The notes beneath the pieces are model-generated. The model was given only the letters and a program-made list of their open reading frames with translations. It was not told where the DNA came from and made no database searches. Positions 26,014-34,030 of a stretch of 64,000 nucleotides of DNA are shown piece after piece. The translations under genes were made by a program, and so were the position numbers. Source of the stretch: Myxococcus stipitatus DSM 14675 (GTDB lineage Bacteria; Myxococcota; Myxococcia; Myxococcales; Myxococcaceae). Numbering within the stretch: the stretch's first letter is position 1; every line of letters starts with the position of its first letter. The stretch spans positions 9,179,501 through 9,243,500 of the forward strand of contig NC_020126.1 of the NCBI RefSeq assembly GCF_000331735.1. The letters run 5' to 3'.

Positions 26014-26502
26014 TCAGCGAGGGCGGAGGATGAAGACGGAGTCCTGCCGGCGCACGGCGGTGAAGGCCCTGAGGGGGCGCTGGGCGGGCCCCTGGAGCAC
26101 CGCGCCATCCAGGGCGAAGCGGGAGCCGTGGCAGGGGCACTCCATGACGCCCTCCCGGGGGAGCCAGTCCACGGTGCAGTCGCCATGGGTGCAGATGCGC
26201 CACAGCGCGACGTAGCAGCCGGGGCGCGCGTGGACGAGCACCACGTCCAGGAGCGCCTCCGGCAGGCGCACCGGGGCGTGGCCTCCCGGTGTCTCCAGTC
26301 CCGGGTGGTCGGAGAGCCGCACCTCCACCCAGCCCTCCTCGGCGGAGCCCGGCGACGGCGCGCCGGGGCAGACACCGTCGGGCGGCAGGTCCAGGACCTC
26401 GGCCTGCCGCCACTCACCGCCGCACCCCACTCCCAGCGTGGCCAGGGCGCAGCCGCCCTGGGCCAACGAGAGGAGCACGGCGCGGCGGTCGAGCTTCGTC
26501 AC
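26014..26502 (-). CDS. Exported Rieske [2Fe-2S] protein in the B12-regulated operon
   Basis: 162 residues. The N-terminus has twin arginines ('LDRRAVLLSLAQGG') and a lipobox-like 'TLGVGC', consistent with folded export by Tat and lipid anchoring. The C-terminal half holds an intact Rieske cluster: Cys-Thr-His in 'ICTHGDC' and Cys-x-x-His in 'CPCHGSRF', so a [2Fe-2S] centre is expected. The GTG start (26502) overlaps the stop of the preceding lipoprotein gene by 4 bp (GTGA), coupling translation. As last gene of the riboswitch-controlled unit it may handle electrons for cobalamin, for example reduction before or during uptake; that role is inferred. Confidence 0.85.
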   Translation of the reverse strand: MTKLDRRAVLLSLAQGGCALATLGVGCGGEWRQAEVLDLPPDGVCPGAPSPGSAEEGWVEVRLSDHPGLETPGGHAPVRLPEALLDVVLVHARPGCYVALWRICTHGDCTVDWLPREGVMECPCHGSRFALDGAVLQGPAQRPLRAFTAVRRQDSVFILRPR

Positions 26503-27212
26503 GGCGCGACAGGCAGCGGCGCGCCGTTCACCACGGCGACACCGTCCAAATCGAAGCCCGCGGAGGTTCCCGAGGCACCGTTGGTCCCCGAGTCCTGGAT
26601 GCGCACGTAGCGGGCGCGGCTCAAGCCCACAGTGGCCAGGTCGAAGCCGTCTCCCCCCGCGACTGCCGGGTCCGTGGCGCTGATGCCCGCGGCCGGGTTG
26701 GCCGTCACGGGGCGCACGCCCGCGCAGCCCGGGAAGTTGTTCGCCCGGTCCGAGGCAGCGCACGGGAAGGTGAACCACTGCACCCCGTCATCGCTGACGG
26801 ACACCTGGCCTCGCTCGGTGAAGGCCGCCGGGCCGCCCGCGATGAGGAAGGGGTTCTCGAAGACGAGCAGGTCCACGCCCGGACCATCCACCACCGCGAG
26901 GTCCGTGAAGCGCAGCGTGATGGAGCCGGACTTGCCCAGCGACAACACGTCGAGCGAGCCGCTGTCGAGCCCCGCGCCCACCGGAGGGCCCAGGACGATG
27001 GACGGGAAGCGGTCCTGCCCGAAGCCCGCGCCGGGGCCTGGGAGGAACTCGACGACCTCATCCGCGTAGGGGTCCGAGGGGGCTGTGACGCTCGCGTCCG
27101 GCGCCGAGCCCGAGTCCTCCGGGCCCGCGTCCCCCAGGGGAGCGGAGGGGTCGCCGTCTCCGCAGGCCGTCAGTCCCGCGAGCAGCGCGAGCAGGGGTAT
27201 CCGGCGCGTCAC
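26499..27212 (-). CDS. Surface lipoprotein of the B12-regulated operon
   Basis: 237 residues. A signal peptide with lipobox ('LLAGLTAC') is followed by a short acidic linker and a beta-rich domain: 'VVEFLPGPGAGFGQDRFPSIVLGPP', 'LDVLSLGKSGSITLRFTD', 'GVDLLVFENPF' and 'DGFDLATVGLSRARYVRIQD'. The pattern resembles cell-surface jelly-roll proteins that occur next to cobalamin receptors in other bacteria. Two Cys ('FPCAAS' and 'FPGCAG') could bridge. GTG 27212 overlaps the upstream stop (GTGA). I infer a ligand-binding role at the outer face of the envelope; no enzymatic motif is seen. Confidence 0.7.
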   Translation of the reverse strand: MTRRIPLLALLAGLTACGDGDPSAPLGDAGPEDSGSAPDASVTAPSDPYADEVVEFLPGPGAGFGQDRFPSIVLGPPVGAGLDSGSLDVLSLGKSGSITLRFTDLAVVDGPGVDLLVFENPFLIAGGPAAFTERGQVSVSDDGVQWFTFPCAASDRANNFPGCAGVRPVTANPAAGISATDPAVAGGDGFDLATVGLSRARYVRIQDSGTNGASGTSAGFDLDGVAVVNGAPLPVAP

Positions 27213-28774
27213 GGCGCCACCCGGAGGCGGACCAGACGCCGGCCGTTCTTGTCGGACACACCCACCAGCACGTCGGAGCCCAGCGGCTCCAACATCGTCA
27301 CGCGGGTGCACTGGTTCGGATAGACGAGCACGGGCGTGCGCGCGCCCACGGTGACGGTGTCGCCGTGCGCGTTCGTGGAGAGCGCGAAGCGCGACACGTC
27401 GGTGCTCACGAAGGCGGTGAAGTCCTCGTTGTAGCCGCCGCGGTTGACCACCACGCCTGAGCCGAAGGAGGAGGCGCCGTTGAAGTCGGTGCCCACGTCG
27501 ATGGCCGCCTGCGTGCTGATGTCCAGCGGCGTCCCGGAGGTGAGGGCCGCGGAGAGCGGCGCGGGCGCCACGCCGTAGAGGACGTTGATGAAGTCGCCGC
27601 TGAAGAGGCCCAGCGCGGCGACGCCGTTGTCCGCCACCGAGGTGAAGCCACTGGCCACGGTGCCCTGCGGGAAGTTGACCGCGCGCACCGTGCCCATCGG
27701 CGAAGCCGAGGTCACCAGGCCGTAGACGCCCAGCCCGGTGGGCAGCGAGCCCAGACCGCCGCCGTTGATGAGCACCGCGCTCACGTCGTCCCAGGAGAAG
27801 GCCGCGGCGGTGAAGTTCTTGGCCGCGGAGAGGTAGGTCGAGTTCGCGGGCGTGGCGAAGTCGTAGAGGGCCACGGAGCCCGGCGCGCCCGAGATGCCCA
27901 GGGTGTAGCCCGCCAGGAGGCGGAAGCCGTCATTCACCACGTAGCCGCCCGAGAAGACCTGGGCGCTGCCCGCCTGGTCCGCCGGGGAGACGACGTCATA
28001 GAGCTTCGTCGTGGTCGGCTGGAGGTTGGGCCACGTGCCCAGCGAGTACAGCGCGGCGGCCTTGCCGCTGCCCTGAATGGCGTAGAGGGAGTACGTGGGG
28101 CCCGGCGAGGAGCCCACGGCGGCGACGCCGTCCGGCAGGGCGACCGACTCGGCCGCGACGAAGCCCGGCTGGAGCTGGAGCGTTCCGAGCTTCGGGTCAT
28201 ACGGGGTCGTCGCGCAGTCGACGCCTGCGTCGGTCGCCGGCCCGCCATCGGTCGGCTCACCCGCGTCCGGCTGTCCCGCGTCCGTCGGCTCACCCGCGTC
28301 CGGCTGTCCCGCGTCCGTCGGCTCACCCGCGTCCGGCTGTCCCGCGTCCGTCGGCTCGCCCGCGTCCGGCTGTCCCGCGTCCGTCGGCTCACCCGCGTCC
28401 GGCAGCCCGGCATCCGTCGGGCCCGCGTCCAGAGGGCCAGCGTCCGGCTGTCCCGCGTCCGTCGGCCCCGAGTCAGGCTGCCCCGAATCAGGCTGCCCCG
28501 AGTCGGGCCGCCCCGCGTCGGGCTGGCCCGCGTCCGGCGTCCCCGCGTCATCGAGCGGAGGCGTCACGATGGGAACGGTGTCGCACTTCTCATCGCGGCA
28601 GACCCACTGCTCGCCAGCGGGGGCGTCGCCGTTGTCGGAGCGGCAGTCGAACTGGTCGACGCACTCGGGGCGGCAGCCGGTGCCGAGCAGGGCCACCGCG
28701 AAGGTGGACACGGCCAGGGAAGCGGTCTTCATCCAGGGCGTTGCGCGTTTGGCTTCAGCGATTCTCGTCAGCAT
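27209..28774 (-). CDS. Lipoprotein with Asp-Ala-Gly-rich linker and beta-propeller-like domain, under a B12 riboswitch
   Basis: 521 residues, starting at ATG 28774 with GAGGG 7 nt upstream. A signal peptide with lipobox ('LLGTGC') precedes a small Cys-containing segment (C-x5-C...'WVCRDEKC'). Then comes a linker of repeated 'DAGQPDAGEPT' units (33-bp DNA repeat), which acts as an acidic tether, and a C-terminal beta-rich domain of about 350 residues with repeated short blades ('VALPDGVAAVGSSPGPTYSLYAI', 'GGYVVNDGFRLLAGYT'). It is the first gene after the second cobalamin riboswitch and is coupled by GTGA overlap to two further genes. This suggests a surface protein for B12 capture; direct binding is unproven. 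Confidence 0.75.
   Translation of the reverse strand: MLTRIAEAKRATPWMKTASLAVSTFAVALLGTGCRPECVDQFDCRSDNGDAPAGEQWVCRDEKCDTVPIVTPPLDDAGTPDAGQPDAGRPDSGQPDSGQPDSGPTDAGQPDAGPLDAGPTDAGLPDAGEPTDAGQPDAGEPTDAGQPDAGEPTDAGQPDAGEPTDAGQPDAGEPTDGGPATDAGVDCATTPYDPKLGTLQLQPGFVAAESVALPDGVAAVGSSPGPTYSLYAIQGSGKAAALYSLGTWPNLQPTTTKLYDVVSPADQAGSAQVFSGGYVVNDGFRLLAGYTLGISGAPGSVALYDFATPANSTYLSAAKNFTAAAFSWDDVSAVLINGGGLGSLPTGLGVYGLVTSASPMGTVRAVNFPQGTVASGFTSVADNGVAALGLFSGDFINVLYGVAPAPLSAALTSGTPLDISTQAAIDVGTDFNGASSFGSGVVVNRGGYNEDFTAFVSTDVSRFALSTNAHGDTVTVGARTPVLVYPNQCTRVTMLEPLGSDVLVGVSDKNGRRLVRLRVAP
28251..28415 (-). repeat. 33-bp in-frame repeats (acidic linker)
   Basis: Five units starting at 28251, 28284, 28317, 28350 and 28383 (exact 33-bp period, last one diverged) encode DAGQPDAGEPT-type 11-mers. 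The repeat lies between the lipid anchor and the folded domain of the lipoprotein. Confidence 0.9.
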
Positions 28775-28929
28775 CCTCGGTCCCTCTTCCGCCCCCACGG
28801 GCAGGTGGGCTTCTGGGAGGACGCGGCCGAAGGCGGACCCGAGCACCCTCGAGGTGCGCGGAGCGGAATGCTGACGCCTCCGCCGCCTCCCCTCGGAGGC
28901 CTCGGTGATGTCCGTACCCGGAGGCACGG

Positions 28930-29121
28930 GTCCTTGGCAGGTTTTCGGACTCACAGGCGCGGGTGCCTTCCAGGCACCCTTCTACTGGCCGTCGCTTCCC
29001 AGCCCCGTGGAGGGCCAGTGCTTCACATGACGGCGGTCGTTCCTGCATACCGCTGCGGGGCAGTCCCGGATTCGCACCGGGTTCCCTAGAGCCGCCGTGA
29101 CCTCACGACGGCACCAAAGAC
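28930..29121 (-). ncRNA. Cobalamin (B12) riboswitch 2
   Basis: Read on the minus strand, the element begins near 29120 with TTTGGTGCCG. It continues through the conserved AGGGAACCCGGTGCGAATCC block (about 29090-29070) and a 'GACTGCCCCGCAGC' core. A B12-box-like 'GGGAAGCGACGGCCAGTAGAAG' region and the diagnostic 'GTGAGTCCGAAAACCTGCC' at the 3' side (about 28955-28936) follow. Spacing and order fit the adenosylcobalamin family. It precedes the lipoprotein/lipoprotein/Rieske unit, about 150 nt before the first start codon, and starts about 8 nt after a good -10 box. Confidence 0.93.
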
Positions 29122-29128
29122 GCGGGCC

Positions 29129-29157
29129 GGGATATGGCGGGCGACGGACGTTGTCAA
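29129..29157 (-). promoter_or_regulatory. Sigma70-type promoter for riboswitch 2
   Basis: A perfect -35 TTGACA (29152-29157) is separated by 17 bp from -10 TATCCC (29129-29134). Transcription would start at about 29120, just at the first conserved bases of the riboswitch. Confidence 0.75.
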
Positions 29158-29171
29158 TGCCGCGCACCCCC

Positions 29172-29192
29172 GAGGACAGGCCGGATGTCCTC
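29172..29192 (-). terminator. Inverted repeat after the Stig1 lipoprotein gene
   Basis: GAGGACA and TGTCCTC form a perfect 7-bp stem with a 7-nt loop. It lies between the stop at 29239 and the promoter of riboswitch 2, in the position of a terminator separating the two B12-controlled transcripts. No T-run is present. Confidence 0.4.
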
Positions 29193-29238
29193 CTCGTGTG
29201 GGAGCAAAGGCCCCGCGGTGGACAGCGTGGATGTCGCA

Positions 29239-30837
29239 CTACCGGAGCGCGGTCACATCGATGGCGTTGGACACGGGGCGTCGAGGATCCAGGGGACACG
29301 CCTGCAACGCGGGGCCCTTGGCCGAGGGCGTCGAGTAACCCCTTCGCTCGACGAGGCGACCGTCCTCCACCTCGACGACGAAGACGCGCCCCGCGTTCGT
29401 GTCCGCCAGGTACACCGCGCCCTGGGCCACGGCGAAGCGGCTGGCCACGGACAGCATGCAGCCCGGGGTGCCGGGCTCACAGCCGGGACTCACCGCGTAG
29501 GACGCCACGGGCAGGTCGTCCTTCACGAGCACCAGGCCCGTGGCTCGCACCGACGTCGCGATGTAGCCGTTGGCCGGGTCGTAGAGGGCCTCGCCGATGC
29601 AGGCGACCACGAGCTGGTCCCCCACGGCCTCCACGTAACCGGCGTTGAGGCAGCGCTCGGCGCCCAGGTCGATGGCGCGGACCTCGCCGGTGGCGGGGTC
29701 GATGCGCGCGAGCATGCCGGGGCCGTTGGGCCGGTAGTCACGGAAGGGATTGAGGTTGGTGAGGGCCACGTAGACAGCGGAGCGCGTCGTCGTCACCGAG
29801 TAGGGCAGCGGCATCACCGTGCCGCCATCGAAGGGTTTCAGGTCCAGGCCGGTGAGCGGAATCGTGTCGACCTTGCGCGGTGACAACGGATTGGAGATGT
29901 CGACGCGCGCGACGGCGTTGCCGTTCCGGAAGCCCGAGCTCGCTGTGCCGAACAGCGGGATGTAGAGCAGGTCGCCGAAGCGCGCGAGCGCCTGGGGACT
30001 GGTGTTCGCGCCCAGGTTCACCTGCCCCACGGTGCGCAGGCCCAGGCCGTTGCCCTGCGCGGGACCTTCGCGCATCAGCACCTGGAGCGTGTTGGTCACG
30101 GAGTCGACGACGTAGACGTAGGGCGGGTCCACGAGGATGTCGTTGGGTGAGCCGGACGTCACCCCGAGCGAGTCCTCCTCGACCACCGTGCCCAGGTTGC
30201 CTCCGGCTGCTTGAAGCAGCTTGCCGTTGGTCATGTCGGCGGCGAGCACGAAGCCATCCCACGACGCGAGCGACTGCACCCCCGCGCCAAACTCCCGCCG
30301 AGGGCCGAGCTGGTCCGTCTCCGCCTGGATGCCCACGAGCTGACCGTTCGTGAAGCAAGCCGTCACCACGTCATAGGCACAGCGGCTCGAGCGACAGGAC
30401 TGCACGTCCGGACACGTGTTGCCACAAGCGCCGCAGTTGAGCGGGTCCGTGGCGCCATCCACGCAAGCACCGCCACAGCGCAGCAGTCCTTGCGAGCAAC
30501 CTTCACGGCACGTGCCCGACTCGCACACCTGTCCCGAGGCGCAGGCGGTGCCACAAGCGCCGCAATGGGCCACATCCGTCGCGGTGTCCACGCACGCGCC
30601 ACCACAGGCCTGCGTGCCCGCGCGGCATCCACAGACACCCTCCTGGCACACCTCGCTCGCGGAGCAGGTGGTGCCACAGGCGCCGCAGTTCGCGGAGTCG
30701 CCACGAGTGTCCACGCACGTGCCACCGCAGACCGAGAGGCCCGCGGTGCACACCACGCCCTCGTCGGGACACCCGGTGAGCACCAGGGCGAAGAGGCAGC
30801 ACAGCATCCACGTGAGCGAGCTTCCTCGCTCAGACAC
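29239..30837 (-). CDS. Stig1-repeat/beta-propeller lipoprotein (BtuG-like candidate)
   Basis: About 532 residues from GTG 30837; an ATG at 30981 would add 48 residues ahead of the signal peptide, so the start is uncertain. The lipobox is 'LVLTGC'. Then come three to four Stig1-type cysteine modules ('CGGTCVDTRGDSANCGACGTTC' pattern), typical of myxobacterial surface proteins. The remaining 380 residues look like a YncE-type beta-propeller with repeated blade patterns ('SPNDILVDPPYVYVVDS', 'GAVYLADTNAGRVFVVEV'). It follows the TonB receptor behind cobalamin riboswitch 1. In Bacteroides, BtuG is a B12-binding propeller lipoprotein encoded beside BtuB; an analogous role is inferred here, not shown. 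Confidence 0.8.
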   Translation of the reverse strand: MSERGSSLTWMLCCLFALVLTGCPDEGVVCTAGLSVCGGTCVDTRGDSANCGACGTTCSASEVCQEGVCGCRAGTQACGGACVDTATDVAHCGACGTACASGQVCESGTCREGCSQGLLRCGGACVDGATDPLNCGACGNTCPDVQSCRSSRCAYDVVTACFTNGQLVGIQAETDQLGPRREFGAGVQSLASWDGFVLAADMTNGKLLQAAGGNLGTVVEEDSLGVTSGSPNDILVDPPYVYVVDSVTNTLQVLMREGPAQGNGLGLRTVGQVNLGANTSPQALARFGDLLYIPLFGTASSGFRNGNAVARVDISNPLSPRKVDTIPLTGLDLKPFDGGTVMPLPYSVTTTRSAVYVALTNLNPFRDYRPNGPGMLARIDPATGEVRAIDLGAERCLNAGYVEAVGDQLVVACIGEALYDPANGYIATSVRATGLVLVKDDLPVASYAVSPGCEPGTPGCMLSVASRFAVAQGAVYLADTNAGRVFVVEVEDGRLVERRGYSTPSAKGPALQACPLDPRRPVSNAIDVTALR

Positions 30838-31025
30838 ACGGACGAGCGTGGACCGAGCCCCCGCGCGAAGCGGCCTCGAATCATGGCCTCCCGACACAGG
30901 CTCGCAGGGTGTCTCCCCGGCGCAGCGCTCCCACGAGGCGCGCTGCCCGTACACCATCGAAGCTCCGTCGAGCGTGGGCATCGGACTCTCGGCGAGAGGC
31001 GTTGAACCACGCCCTCGACACGGGC

Positions 31026-33101
31026 TCAGGGGGATGGGGGGCGCGATGCATGAGGTTCCTCGGTGACAGCAGGTGAGTCCCGGTCGAGCGCCACCGCCAG
31101 CGTCGCGTACACAGCGCGCCCCGGCAGCGGGAAGCCGGTGAAGTCATAGGCCCGGGCGTCGAGGAGGTTCTTCACCTCCACCGACAACGTGACGTCCGGC
31201 CGCCTCAAGAAGGTGCTCGAAGCCCCCGCGCTCCAGAACGTGCGCGACGGCAAGCTCCGAGTCCCCGTGCGATTCACGAACTGCGCGGCCTGATACAGCA
31301 CCTCGGTGCGGACGTTGAGCCAATCCGGCCCCGCTCGCACACGCCCCACCCACTTGTGGCGAGGACGATACGGCAACGGCTGATTGTAGAAGCGCGGATC
31401 GCCCAGCCGGTTCTGCGTGCGCAGCCACGTGTAACCCCCACTGGCCATCAGCCACGAGAACGGACGCGCCTCCACCTCCAGCTCCGCGCCCCACACTCGC
31501 GCGGCGTCGAAGTTGTAGGGACGCGCCGCCATGGGCGGATACAGCTCGTACGCGATGAGGTTCTCGTACAGCGCGCCGAAGCCCCCCGCCGTCACGCTCC
31601 ACCGAGCCCCCTCCTCCGCCGAGCTCCACACCAGCGCCGCGTCCGCATACAGCGCCCGCTCCGGCTTCAAGCCAGGATTGGGCAGCAACATGCCCTGCCG
31701 GATGTAGAGCTCCAGGAACGAAGGTGCCCGGTGAGACTGTCCCGCGTTGGCCCGCAGGCCCAAGCCACGCCCCAGCGACACCATCGCGCCGAGCTTCGGA
31801 GAGAAGAGCCAGTAGGGCCCCACGCGCTCCAGCCGCAGCGACGGCACCACCTCCAGGACGCCGTCGAACAACGTCCACTCGTCCATCGCCATGACGCTCG
31901 TGCGCCACCAGCTCGCGGCCTGTGAGTCCCGCGCATCGGTCACCTGCTCACCCGACGCGGCCACCGTGAGCGTCAGCACCTGTGAATCCCCGAGCGGCGT
32001 GCGCCCCTCCAACTCCACGCCCCCCACCGAGTGCCGCTGCGGCCCTCCCGCCGCGAGCAGGTCGCCCGTCACCTCCAACCCATCGCGCCGGAAGAAGCCC
32101 CGTGCACTCGCCTGCGCTCCCGCACCGCCCAAGGCTCCCGACCAGCGCACGCCCAACGAGAGCCGGTCCAGGTCCTGCCGCCCCGAGGACTGTGGGTTCT
32201 GCACCGTGCCCGGAATCGCGCGGTCCTCCAGCGCCAGCTCGGAGAGCACGTCCAACCGCGAGCCCCCCGGCAATCGGCGCCGGTAGCGGAGGAGCACCCC
32301 ACCCCCTCGCGCGTCATTGCGGGCCCGCGCTTCCGCGGTGACGGGATTGTCCACCGCGGGCAGCTCATCGAGCTCGTAGGCGAAGTCGCCCTCCGACCGC
32401 CCCGCATGCAGCAGCACGAGCGCATTCCCATCCAGCAGCGGCCCCGTGACGGCGACATGCCCCAGCGCCGTGTTCCAGCTCCCGTACGTCACCTCACCAC
32501 TGGCGCGCGCACTCGAGGAGGGTGCCCGCGTGACGATGTTCACCGCGCCGCCCAGCCCTCCCGAGCCGTAGCGCGTCCCCGCGCCCCCACGCAGCACCTC
32601 GAAGCGCTCCACGAGCGCGGCGGGGACTTGAGACAAATCCGCCATGCCGCCCGCGCCGTTGAGCGGAATCCCATCCAGGAACACCAACACGCCGTTCGAC
32701 GCCGCGCCGCGAACCACCAGGCTCTTGCTCTGCCCGTACCCTCCGGTGTCCTGCACCGCGAGCCCCACCGACCCGGCCAACAGCTCCGCCGTGTCGCGAG
32801 CCTCCCCCGCGCGCTCCGCCGCATCGATGAGGGTGATGGCCCCCGTCGGGTCCCTGCGCTCGGGTGACTCCGGAGGCGGAGGTGCCTTCCCCCGCACCAC
32901 CGTTCCCGAGGACGAGACCGGTGTCGGACTGGAACCTGGACTCGTCACCGCGTCCGGAGTGGGCTCGGCGGACGGCGCGCTCTCGGCGGACGGCGCGCTC
33001 TCGGCGGGCACGGCGTCTGCGTCTCGCGACTGCGCGCGGACGTCGCCAGCGAGGCTGAGCGCCAGGCACACCAGGTGCCCGGTGAAGAAGGTGCGCCGCA
33101 T
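31026..33101 (-). CDS. btuB: BtuB-like TonB-dependent cobalamin receptor
   Basis: 691 residues from ATG 33101, chosen because GGAAGG lies 6 nt upstream and a signal peptide follows directly ('MRRTFFTGHLVCLALSLAG'). After an acidic/Pro-rich stretch the plug domain shows 'TGAITLIDAAERAGEARDTAELLAGSVGLAVQDTGG', 'VFLDGIPLNGAGG' and 'EVLRGGAGTRYGSGGLGGAVNIVTR', followed by a 22-strand-type barrel ending near an aromatic/charged tail. Substrate assignment rests on the cobalamin riboswitch directly upstream (33170-33396), a context nearly specific for B12 uptake or synthesis. The inner-membrane partner (BtuCDF) and TonB are not in the window. Confidence 0.88.
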   Translation of the reverse strand: MRRTFFTGHLVCLALSLAGDVRAQSRDADAVPAESAPSAESAPSAEPTPDAVTSPGSSPTPVSSSGTVVRGKAPPPPESPERRDPTGAITLIDAAERAGEARDTAELLAGSVGLAVQDTGGYGQSKSLVVRGAASNGVLVFLDGIPLNGAGGMADLSQVPAALVERFEVLRGGAGTRYGSGGLGGAVNIVTRAPSSSARASGEVTYGSWNTALGHVAVTGPLLDGNALVLLHAGRSEGDFAYELDELPAVDNPVTAEARARNDARGGGVLLRYRRRLPGGSRLDVLSELALEDRAIPGTVQNPQSSGRQDLDRLSLGVRWSGALGGAGAQASARGFFRRDGLEVTGDLLAAGGPQRHSVGGVELEGRTPLGDSQVLTLTVAASGEQVTDARDSQAASWWRTSVMAMDEWTLFDGVLEVVPSLRLERVGPYWLFSPKLGAMVSLGRGLGLRANAGQSHRAPSFLELYIRQGMLLPNPGLKPERALYADAALVWSSAEEGARWSVTAGGFGALYENLIAYELYPPMAARPYNFDAARVWGAELEVEARPFSWLMASGGYTWLRTQNRLGDPRFYNQPLPYRPRHKWVGRVRAGPDWLNVRTEVLYQAAQFVNRTGTRSLPSRTFWSAGASSTFLRRPDVTLSVEVKNLLDARAYDFTGFPLPGRAVYATLAVALDRDSPAVTEEPHASRPPSP

Positions 33102-33169
33102 GCTCCGCCTTCCGCTCTCTCCATCGAAGAGAGAAGGCCACACGCCCATGTCGCCACGCGACACGGCCG

Positions 33170-33396
33170 CACCCCTGGGCAGGTCTCCTGGCTGATGAGC
33201 TCCGGCTCCAGGCGCACGTTGCGTCTGGCTGGAAGGGGGCTCCCACCTTCCCCTGGAGCGCCGTGAAGCGGTGGCCAGAGTGGCGACAACCGAAGTCCCC
33301 GGCCCTGACCTCAGGGCTGCCCATTCACAGTGGCGGGACCGCGCCGGAATCGCACCGGCTTCCCTCTTGAAAGCCCGACATGGGCACCCAAGGGCG
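33170..33396 (-). ncRNA. Cobalamin (B12) riboswitch 1
   Basis: On the minus strand the element starts near 33396 ('TTGGGTGCCCATG') and shows 'GAGGGAAGCCGGTGCGATTCC' (about 33370-33350), 'GGTCCCGCCACTGTGA' (the canonical core), a GGGAAGGTGGGAG box near 33245, and the 3' 'TCATCAGCCAGGAGACCTGCC' (about 33197-33177). Sequence and order fit the cobalamin riboswitch. It lies about 70 nt upstream of the btuB-like start codon, so its 3' end is close enough to control the ribosome site. Confidence 0.95.
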
Positions 33397-33401
33397 CACC
33401 C

Positions 33402-33430
33402 CTTCTAGGGGGTCACCCTGGTCGCGTCAA
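33402..33430 (-). promoter_or_regulatory. Sigma70-type promoter for riboswitch 1
   Basis: -35 TTGACG (33425-33430) and -10 TAGAAG (33402-33407) are spaced by 17 bp. The predicted start is at about 33395, the first bases of the riboswitch. The -35 lies within the 3' end of the FHA gene. Confidence 0.7.
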
Positions 33431-33937
33431 GCGCACCCGGGGCTGCTGAGGATACGAGCGCACGTAGCGCTCGAACGCACAGGCCTGGAGGAACACCACC
33501 TCCGCGCCCCCCAGCCGCAACGAGGCCCGCGTGAAGAGCGGCGACGGACGCCCCGGCACCACCAGCACGCCTTCCAGATACGTGCCGCCGTGGCTCTCCA
33601 GGTCCGTCACGCTCCACACCTCGGTGTGTGGCTCTGGACGAAAGCGTGCGTGCTGACGAGACACCGTGGGTTCGGGCAGAACGATGTCGCACTCTGGACT
33701 GCGCCCCACTGTCACCTCGGGGCCTCGGCCTGGGTAGCGGGGGCGCAGCTCGAAGACCATCGACTCCACGACGCGCGGAGGCGACGGGCCCATCAACGTC
33801 GGCGCTTCCTCCGGGCCCACCGAGCGAGGACGGCTCGGCATCGAATCCCACACCAGCACGGGCCACCCGACATCCCTCAACAAGGCATCGGGGTCATCCT
33901 GGAGCCGTGTCATCAACACGGACAATCGATGGAGCAC
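33413..33937 (-). CDS. FHA-domain protein
   Basis: 174 residues. GTG 33937 is chosen because GGAGG lies 7 nt upstream; a GTG at 34003 is less well placed. The N-terminus is a short helical segment. The FHA domain (about residues 65-160) has 'VTVGRSPECDIVL', 'VSRQHARF' and 'ESHGGTYLEG', with the phosphothreonine-contacting Arg, Ser and His residues in place. It is the last gene of the ECF sigma-factor operon and would read a phospho-signal, perhaps from one of the kinases. The promoter of the B12 receptor unit overlaps its 3' end. Confidence 0.85.
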   Translation of the reverse strand: MLHRLSVLMTRLQDDPDALLRDVGWPVLVWDSMPSRPRSVGPEEAPTLMGPSPPRVVESMVFELRPRYPGRGPEVTVGRSPECDIVLPEPTVSRQHARFRPEPHTEVWSVTDLESHGGTYLEGVLVVPGRPSPLFTRASLRLGGAEVVFLQACAFERYVRSYPQQPRVRLTRPG

Positions 33938-34030
33938 GTCGTGTCCTCCGGGCCGGAAGGAAGTGCGTTCGCGAAGCTGTGCACGCCCCCGCCATCTGTC
34001 CACCCCCTCGCGTCCGGGCCCCTTTTCTCT

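Follow-up and report, generated by a model that had tools for sequence, protein, structure and literature searches.

How does a myxobacterium collect vitamin B12? Myxococcus xanthus takes up the vitamin but is unable to synthesise it, and its CarH light switch depends on it (PMC8156234); the literature that we found names no B12 uptake system for this species. A locus of Myxococcus stipitatus DSM 14675 (assembly GCF_000331735.1) bears directly on this question. It lies at positions 26,014 to 33,430 of a window of 64,000 nucleotides, the whole stretch of DNA that was analysed (contig NC_020126.1, positions 9,179,501 to 9,243,500), and consists of two adjacent units on the minus strand, each headed by a cobalamin riboswitch. 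Considering the riboswitches together with fold comparison, profile comparison and gene neighbourhoods in other genomes, we regard it as likely that the locus is a two-operon system for scavenging vitamin B12 (corrinoids), which makes it a specific candidate for how myxobacteria collect the vitamin. The aptamers and genes are as follows, in coordinates of the window.

33161-33406, minus strand: cobalamin riboswitch aptamer 1, heading unit 1 (RF00174, 68.9 bits, E 6.7e-15)
31026-33101, minus strand: P0001, BtuB-type TonB-dependent outer-membrane receptor (PF00593 and PF07715 over cut-off)
29239-30843, minus strand: P0002, lipoprotein with a Stig1 / MXAN_6577-like cysteine-rich N-terminus and a predicted beta-propeller (NF041328, Stig1 and AlphaFold model, AF2)
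28919-29133, minus strand: cobalamin riboswitch aptamer 2, heading unit 2 (RF00174, 91.7 bits, E 2e-21)
27209-28774, minus strand: LP1 (P0003), lipoprotein: linker rich in Pro/Asp/Ala/Gly, then a C-terminal domain of about 330 residues
26499-27212, minus strand: LP2 (P0004), lipoprotein, BtuH-like by AF2 fold and profile comparison
26014-26502, minus strand: P0005, Rieske [2Fe-2S] protein with a twin-arginine type leader (PF00355, 40.5 bits, cut-off 20.3)

An earlier reading of the sequence alone had placed two minus-strand cobalamin riboswitches at 33170-33396 and 28930-29121. Covariance search with the Rfam cobalamin model RF00174 recovers both with ends within about 10 bases; each matches the whole model (positions 1-189) and scores well over the gathering score of 31.5 bits, and no further Rfam match over threshold is found in the window. 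In the whole genome, a single contig of 10,350,586 bp, there are only three cobalamin riboswitches, two of which are those of this locus, about 4 kb apart on one strand. On comparing this interval across the genus, the two elements were found together on a single strand, with the two units adjacent, in 24 of the 26 other genomes, the remaining two having them on separate contigs.

LP2 has no match in Pfam, and a comparison with the PDB by sequence alone gave a marginal hit to 7BIZ (E 0.45). Its AF2 model has a predicted local distance difference test (pLDDT) score of 87, with the core above 95, and the best Foldseek match of this model in the PDB is chain B of 8BLW (BtuB1G1, E 2.9e-4). Using VIA-align, the model could be superposed on BtuH2 (7BIZ, residues 317-592) with a Z score of 13.5 over 152 residues at 20% identity, and on the BtuH domain of BtuG1 (8BLW, 392-660) with a Z score of 12.3, whereas unrelated folds reached at most 9.9, leaving BtuH 2.4-3.6 Z units above them. 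Additionally, LP2 was compared by hhalign with a BtuH family drawn from Bacteroidota, whose seed was one genome found by a scan with a short BtuH fragment. The score was 46.1 (P 5.3e-6, probability 86%) over a core of 47 columns. Among the controls, none of 150 column-shuffled BtuH profiles exceeded 21.2, the reversed profile gave 15.1 and other profiles stayed at or below 23.5. Within this core Asn399 and Phe401 of BtuH2 align with N120 (40 of 40 relatives) and F122 (39 of 40 relatives) of LP2. In BtuH2, Asn399 contacts the phosphate of B12 and Phe401 the lower ligand, both touching the nucleotide loop (PMC8941943); the numbering of 7BIZ was checked at Gln333, Asn399, Phe401, His476, Tyr510, Trp511 and Trp577, the residues named in that paper. 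BtuH itself was published without known structural homologues, in work on gut Bacteroidetes (PMC8941943). The analogy with BtuH drawn in the sequence-only reading can be restated for LP2 as probable homology: fold and profile together make it very likely that LP2 is a divergent BtuH-type protein. That it also binds B12 is reasonably probable.

Relatives of LP2 were sought in 84,980 species genomes. They occur in Myxococcota; more distant ones come from records titled Hydrogenedens, Planctomycetes, Verrucomicrobia, Burkholderiales, Gammaproteobacteria, Thermodesulfobacteriota and others, some of these genomes being metagenome bins with possibly unreliable taxon names. A same-strand cobalamin riboswitch lies upstream of the LP2 gene, or of an adjacent gene of the cluster such as that for a TonB receptor, in 35 of the 50 genomes mapped, which come from several phyla; the chance expectation is well below one, with about two elements per genome of about 6 Mb. 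Re-scanning of 8 such loci with Rfam confirmed the riboswitches in place. DUF4465 proteins, members of a family that binds B12 (PMC13398666), adjoin LP2 relatives in about 8 loci (Burkholderiales, Planctomycetes and Verrucomicrobia), and the two are fused in L161 and L168; DUF4465 was assigned by Pfam in L158 and L160 and by a TPAYF-type motif in the other loci. The fusion in L168 (1396-7428), from a record titled Rubripirellula sp., is a protein of 2011 residues that carries an LP2-type domain and DUF4465-type TPAYF motifs in one chain. DUF4465 (PF14717) is found nowhere in the M. stipitatus genome. The possibility that LP2 is itself a DUF4465/BtuJ protein was considered and rejected, as LP2 has no PF14717 match and the hhalign probability is 1.7%.

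Unit 1 had been described from the sequence as a TonB receptor followed by a Stig1/beta-propeller lipoprotein, and the Pfam and NCBIfam matches and the AF2 model agree with this description. Amongst all NCBIfam models the best for P0001 is TIGR01779, the B12 receptor. P0002 has the lipobox LTGC, its AF2 model (pLDDT 81) is a propeller, and the top Foldseek match of this model is BtuG3 with bound cyanocobalamin. A receptor gene followed by a gene for this propeller is seen in nearly all of the riboswitch-led btuB loci examined in the taxonomic order. In many relatives, btuF- and btuC-like genes, recognised by reading the sequences, follow the receptor and propeller genes and lie between the two units. 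Along with the adjacency of the units across the genus, these neighbours support the earlier proposal that the two units form one B12-capture system, as do the BtuH-like character of LP2 and the company that its relatives keep with cobalamin riboswitches, TonB receptors and DUF4465 proteins.

In the mechanism that we propose, both riboswitches would leave their operons on when intracellular cobalamin is low and turn them off when it is high, a direction that we infer, and the shut-off would probably work by hiding ribosome-binding sites and not by termination. Unit 1 would provide an outer-membrane channel of BtuB type and a propeller lipoprotein, probably seated on the channel as BtuG is on BtuB in Bacteroides. 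Unit 2 would provide LP2, a short BtuH-type lipoprotein probably binding cobalamin by the nucleotide loop, together with LP1 and the Rieske protein, whose centre might, speculatively, reduce bound cobalt. Surface display and partner transfer of the lipoproteins are likewise inferred. A bolder version can be conceived, in which LP2 represents a short, widespread branch of BtuH domains in phyla outside Bacteroidetes and, in myxobacteria, forms with the co-translated Rieske protein a reductive capture module: LP2 would hold the corrinoid while the Rieske protein reduced Co(III), loosening the upper ligand before hand-over to the receptor. We consider this version improbable.

Several observations weigh against a B12 scavenging system of this kind. 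The BtuH domain exceeds LP2 in length by about 80 residues, and the shortfall of LP2 lies in the corrin-contacting part; counterparts in LP2 of the corrin contacts His476, Tyr510, Trp511 and Trp577 were not identified. The score of P0001 against TIGR01779, 122.3 bits, falls short of the equivalog cut-off of 599.7, and the receptor is better classed as BtuB-type only. BtuG and the P0002 model give a VIA-align Z score of 29, which is level with or below that of other propellers, and a Pfam propeller match in P0002 was not found. A profile of P0002 compared with the PDB similarly retrieved YncE-type and other propellers, with BtuG-like YncE-family chains scoring the same as an archaeal surface-layer propeller. 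Of the likeness to BtuG that had been suggested, the similar fold and gene position stand, whereas P0002 is not separable from other propellers; that it is BtuG-like is reasonably probable. The btuF and btuC genes are missing from the locus in this species and are also gone in its nearest relatives, and elsewhere in the genome only FecCD-type systems were found (at most 43%), the best BtuC match being 43% identical. Finally, 15 of the 50 LP2 relatives are without an upstream riboswitch, some of their contigs ending early.

That no counterpart of the corrin-contacting part of BtuH was identified favours the alternative that survives best, namely that LP2 shares with BtuH only a jelly-roll fold (F5/8-type C / CBM32-like) and binds a sugar or protein, serving the receptor as a structural partner. 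Against the LP2 model, CBM32 and other galactose-binding-like domains do reach Z scores of 8-9.9. LP2 also matches NCBIfam NF033170, the family of Leptospira LIC_13355 lipoproteins (model residues 79-215, E 6e-11), with 42 bits, far under the cut-off of 120 and hence as a distant relative only, and LIC_13355 is reported to bind laminin and plasminogen (PMC11891782). However, BtuH stands 2.4-3.6 Z units over all other folds, the profile match singles out BtuH and has its centre at the B12-touching Asn-x-Phe motif, and LP2 relatives occur beside, and fused with, DUF4465 proteins. A merely shared fold is, on this balance, unlikely.

Less probable still is that the locus captures some corrinoid other than cobalamin, such as an incomplete or alternative cobamide. 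The contacts of BtuH2 are mainly with groups that every cobamide shares and do not involve the upper ligand (PMC8941943), and the TonB receptor stays under the cobalamin equivalog cut-off; on the other hand, use of external B12 is reported for M. xanthus (PMC8156234). Both aptamers, moreover, belong to the cobalamin family.

In other bacteria riboswitches control B12-independent isozymes, such as B12-independent ribonucleotide reductases and metE; the Rieske protein belongs to the redox proteins of respiratory type, and the third riboswitch of this genome heads a catabolic operon and not a transporter, but a B12-independent redox function of unit 2, induced at B12 scarcity in place of uptake, is very unlikely, given that LP2 relatives elsewhere are tied to TonB receptors and DUF4465 proteins, that unit 2 remains beside btuB across the genus and that LP1 and LP2 are exported lipoproteins without a catalytic family match.

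A B12 scavenging system encoded by two operons is the explanation that we carry forward, and the leaders of the two units allow its regulation to be described more closely. The following elements were recognised there.

33401-33429 (3' end approximate, 1-2 bases), minus strand: unit 1 promoter, TTGACG-17-TAGAAG (sequence and footprinting)
29128-29156, minus strand: unit 2 promoter, TTGACA-17-TATCCC (sequence and footprinting)
33107-33139, minus strand: conserved hairpin GGCCTTCTCTCTTCGATGGAGAGAGCGGAAGGC, immediately ahead of the btuB start (near-invariant in 27 loci)
28885-28900, minus strand: conserved hairpin GCCTCCGAGGGGAGGC, after aptamer 2 (leader alignment; minimum free energy -11.3 kcal/mol, z -3.0)
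28789-28805, minus strand: conserved hairpin CCTGCCCGTGGGGGCGG, before the LP1 start (leader alignment)

A sigma70-like promoter with 17-bp spacing had been noticed before each riboswitch, and footprinting alignments bear this out: TTGACN-17-TANNNN lies ahead of unit 1 in 25 of 27 relatives and ahead of unit 2 in all 26. The TTGACA of unit 2 is the same in all 26 relatives (100% identity), as compared with an average identity of 50% in the 60 nucleotides upstream. The unit 1 promoter reaches into the 3' end of the FHA-domain gene that lies upstream (33413-34003), where baseline conservation is 81%, and its conservation is weaker evidence because the -35 element overlaps the end of that gene. 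A generic consensus promoter scan lists neither promoter because it demands a T at the last base of the -10 element. Transcription start sites may be placed by the position of the promoters. Each aptamer is followed by a hairpin that is strongly conserved and has no U run. Hairpin GGCCTTCTCTCTTCGATGGAGAGAGCGGAAGGC directly precedes GGAGC-ATG in unit 1 and has a minimum free energy of -16.4 kcal/mol, which is unexceptional against shuffled sequences; similarly, the stretch of CCTGCCCGTGGGGGCGG gives -11.8 kcal/mol with a z of only -0.7. Since the terminator scan found no intrinsic terminator near either leader, translational control seems likelier than termination, and GGCCTTCTCTCTTCGATGGAGAGAGCGGAAGGC is a probable translational expression platform.

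The composition given earlier for unit 2, two lipoproteins and a Rieske protein joined by GTGA overlaps, is present in the sequence (LP1/LP2 at 27212-27209 and LP2/Rieske at 26502-26499), the Rieske protein being recognised by Pfam; its CTH/CPCH ligand motifs are invariant in 14 relatives. LP1 has no match in Pfam or NCBIfam and no relative in the PDB except for a match to the linker. Its profile gives no significant match to the propeller of P0002, and a propeller fold for LP1 would be a guess. Amongst the loci examined, homologues of LP1 are confined to Myxococcaceae and near relatives. Outside the genus the Rieske gene still adjoins LP2 (L114, L116, L117, L119, L120, L122 and L123); LP1 is not kept beside LP2 there, and its place is often taken by a different family of small lipoproteins.

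Members of this family, which consist of 1-3 repeats of about 100 residues ending in CGGFSWT or similar, lie between the riboswitch and LP2 outside Myxococcaceae (L116, L119, L123, L128, L130, L137, L140, L141, L143 and L149). A Pfam scan of two of them gave no match, and the family is a candidate for a further B12-associated protein. Several genomes of the genus, as well as Corallococcus, carry tandem duplicates of LP1-LP2 (L040, L042, L045, L103, L104, L105, L107, L108, L110, L111 and L125).

Other parts of the genome also bear on B12. A search for CbiC, positive in control genomes, found it neither in this genome nor in most of the genus, and because it is lacking this myxobacterium probably cannot build the corrin ring. 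Two genomes of the genus keep CbiC (G012 C653 and G019 C50), in each case with a further cobalamin riboswitch about 6 kb away. Across the genus, corrin synthesis appears to have been lost, or patchily regained. The third cobalamin riboswitch of M. stipitatus (C1:2445814-2446024, in locus L073, G000 C1:2436500-2448500) is followed by an operon with aminotransferase, aldehyde dehydrogenase, CoA-transferase and thiolase genes and no transport genes. The genes were named from their sequences in this genome and in relatives, and the operon may be an alternative to a catabolic route that depends on B12.

No literature was found on this locus or on BtuG- or BtuH-type proteins in myxobacteria, except that Myxococcota are named among the holders of DUF4465, and none that links a riboswitch, a lipoprotein and a Rieske protein. 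Known systems in other bacteria offer the closest comparisons. Like BtuB-BtuFCD of Escherichia coli, the locus has a TonB-dependent receptor under a cobalamin riboswitch, with btuF- and btuC-like neighbours in many relatives; B12 uptake in E. coli, in contrast, has no lipoproteins of these kinds. DUF4465/BtuJ proteins (PF14717) are exported, B12-associated beta-sandwich proteins of TonB receptor loci and occur as neighbours or fusion partners of LP2 relatives in several phyla. LP2 differs from DUF4465 proteins in having neither a match to their family model nor a significant profile comparison with them. For LIC_13355 (NF033170), no B12 link is described in PMC11891782. As it is distantly related to LP2, it may belong to the BtuH superfamily, which provides a testable hypothesis of B12 binding for this lipoprotein of Leptospira, at present discussed as an adhesin.

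The nearest counterparts are the cobamide loci of Bacteroides thetaiotaomicron (BtuB, BtuG, BtuH, BtuJ and BtuK), which share riboswitch-led operons, a BtuB receptor with a neighbouring propeller and further lipoproteins, two riboswitches in one locus and, through the fold and profile of LP2, the B12-binding domain of BtuH. Unlike them, the M. stipitatus locus lacks btuF and btuC, and no DUF4465 protein is encoded in the genome; its propeller bears a Stig1-type cysteine-rich domain, LP2 is without the PKD domains of BtuH and has a binding domain shorter by about 80 residues, and for LP1 and the Rieske protein no counterpart was found in the Bacteroides literature on these loci. That the BtuH fold and part of its B12-contact motif occur behind cobalamin riboswitches in several phyla, among them Myxococcota, Verrucomicrobiota, Planctomycetota and Pseudomonadota, suggests that the use of dedicated lipoproteins to capture B12 is a general strategy and not a speciality of the gut.

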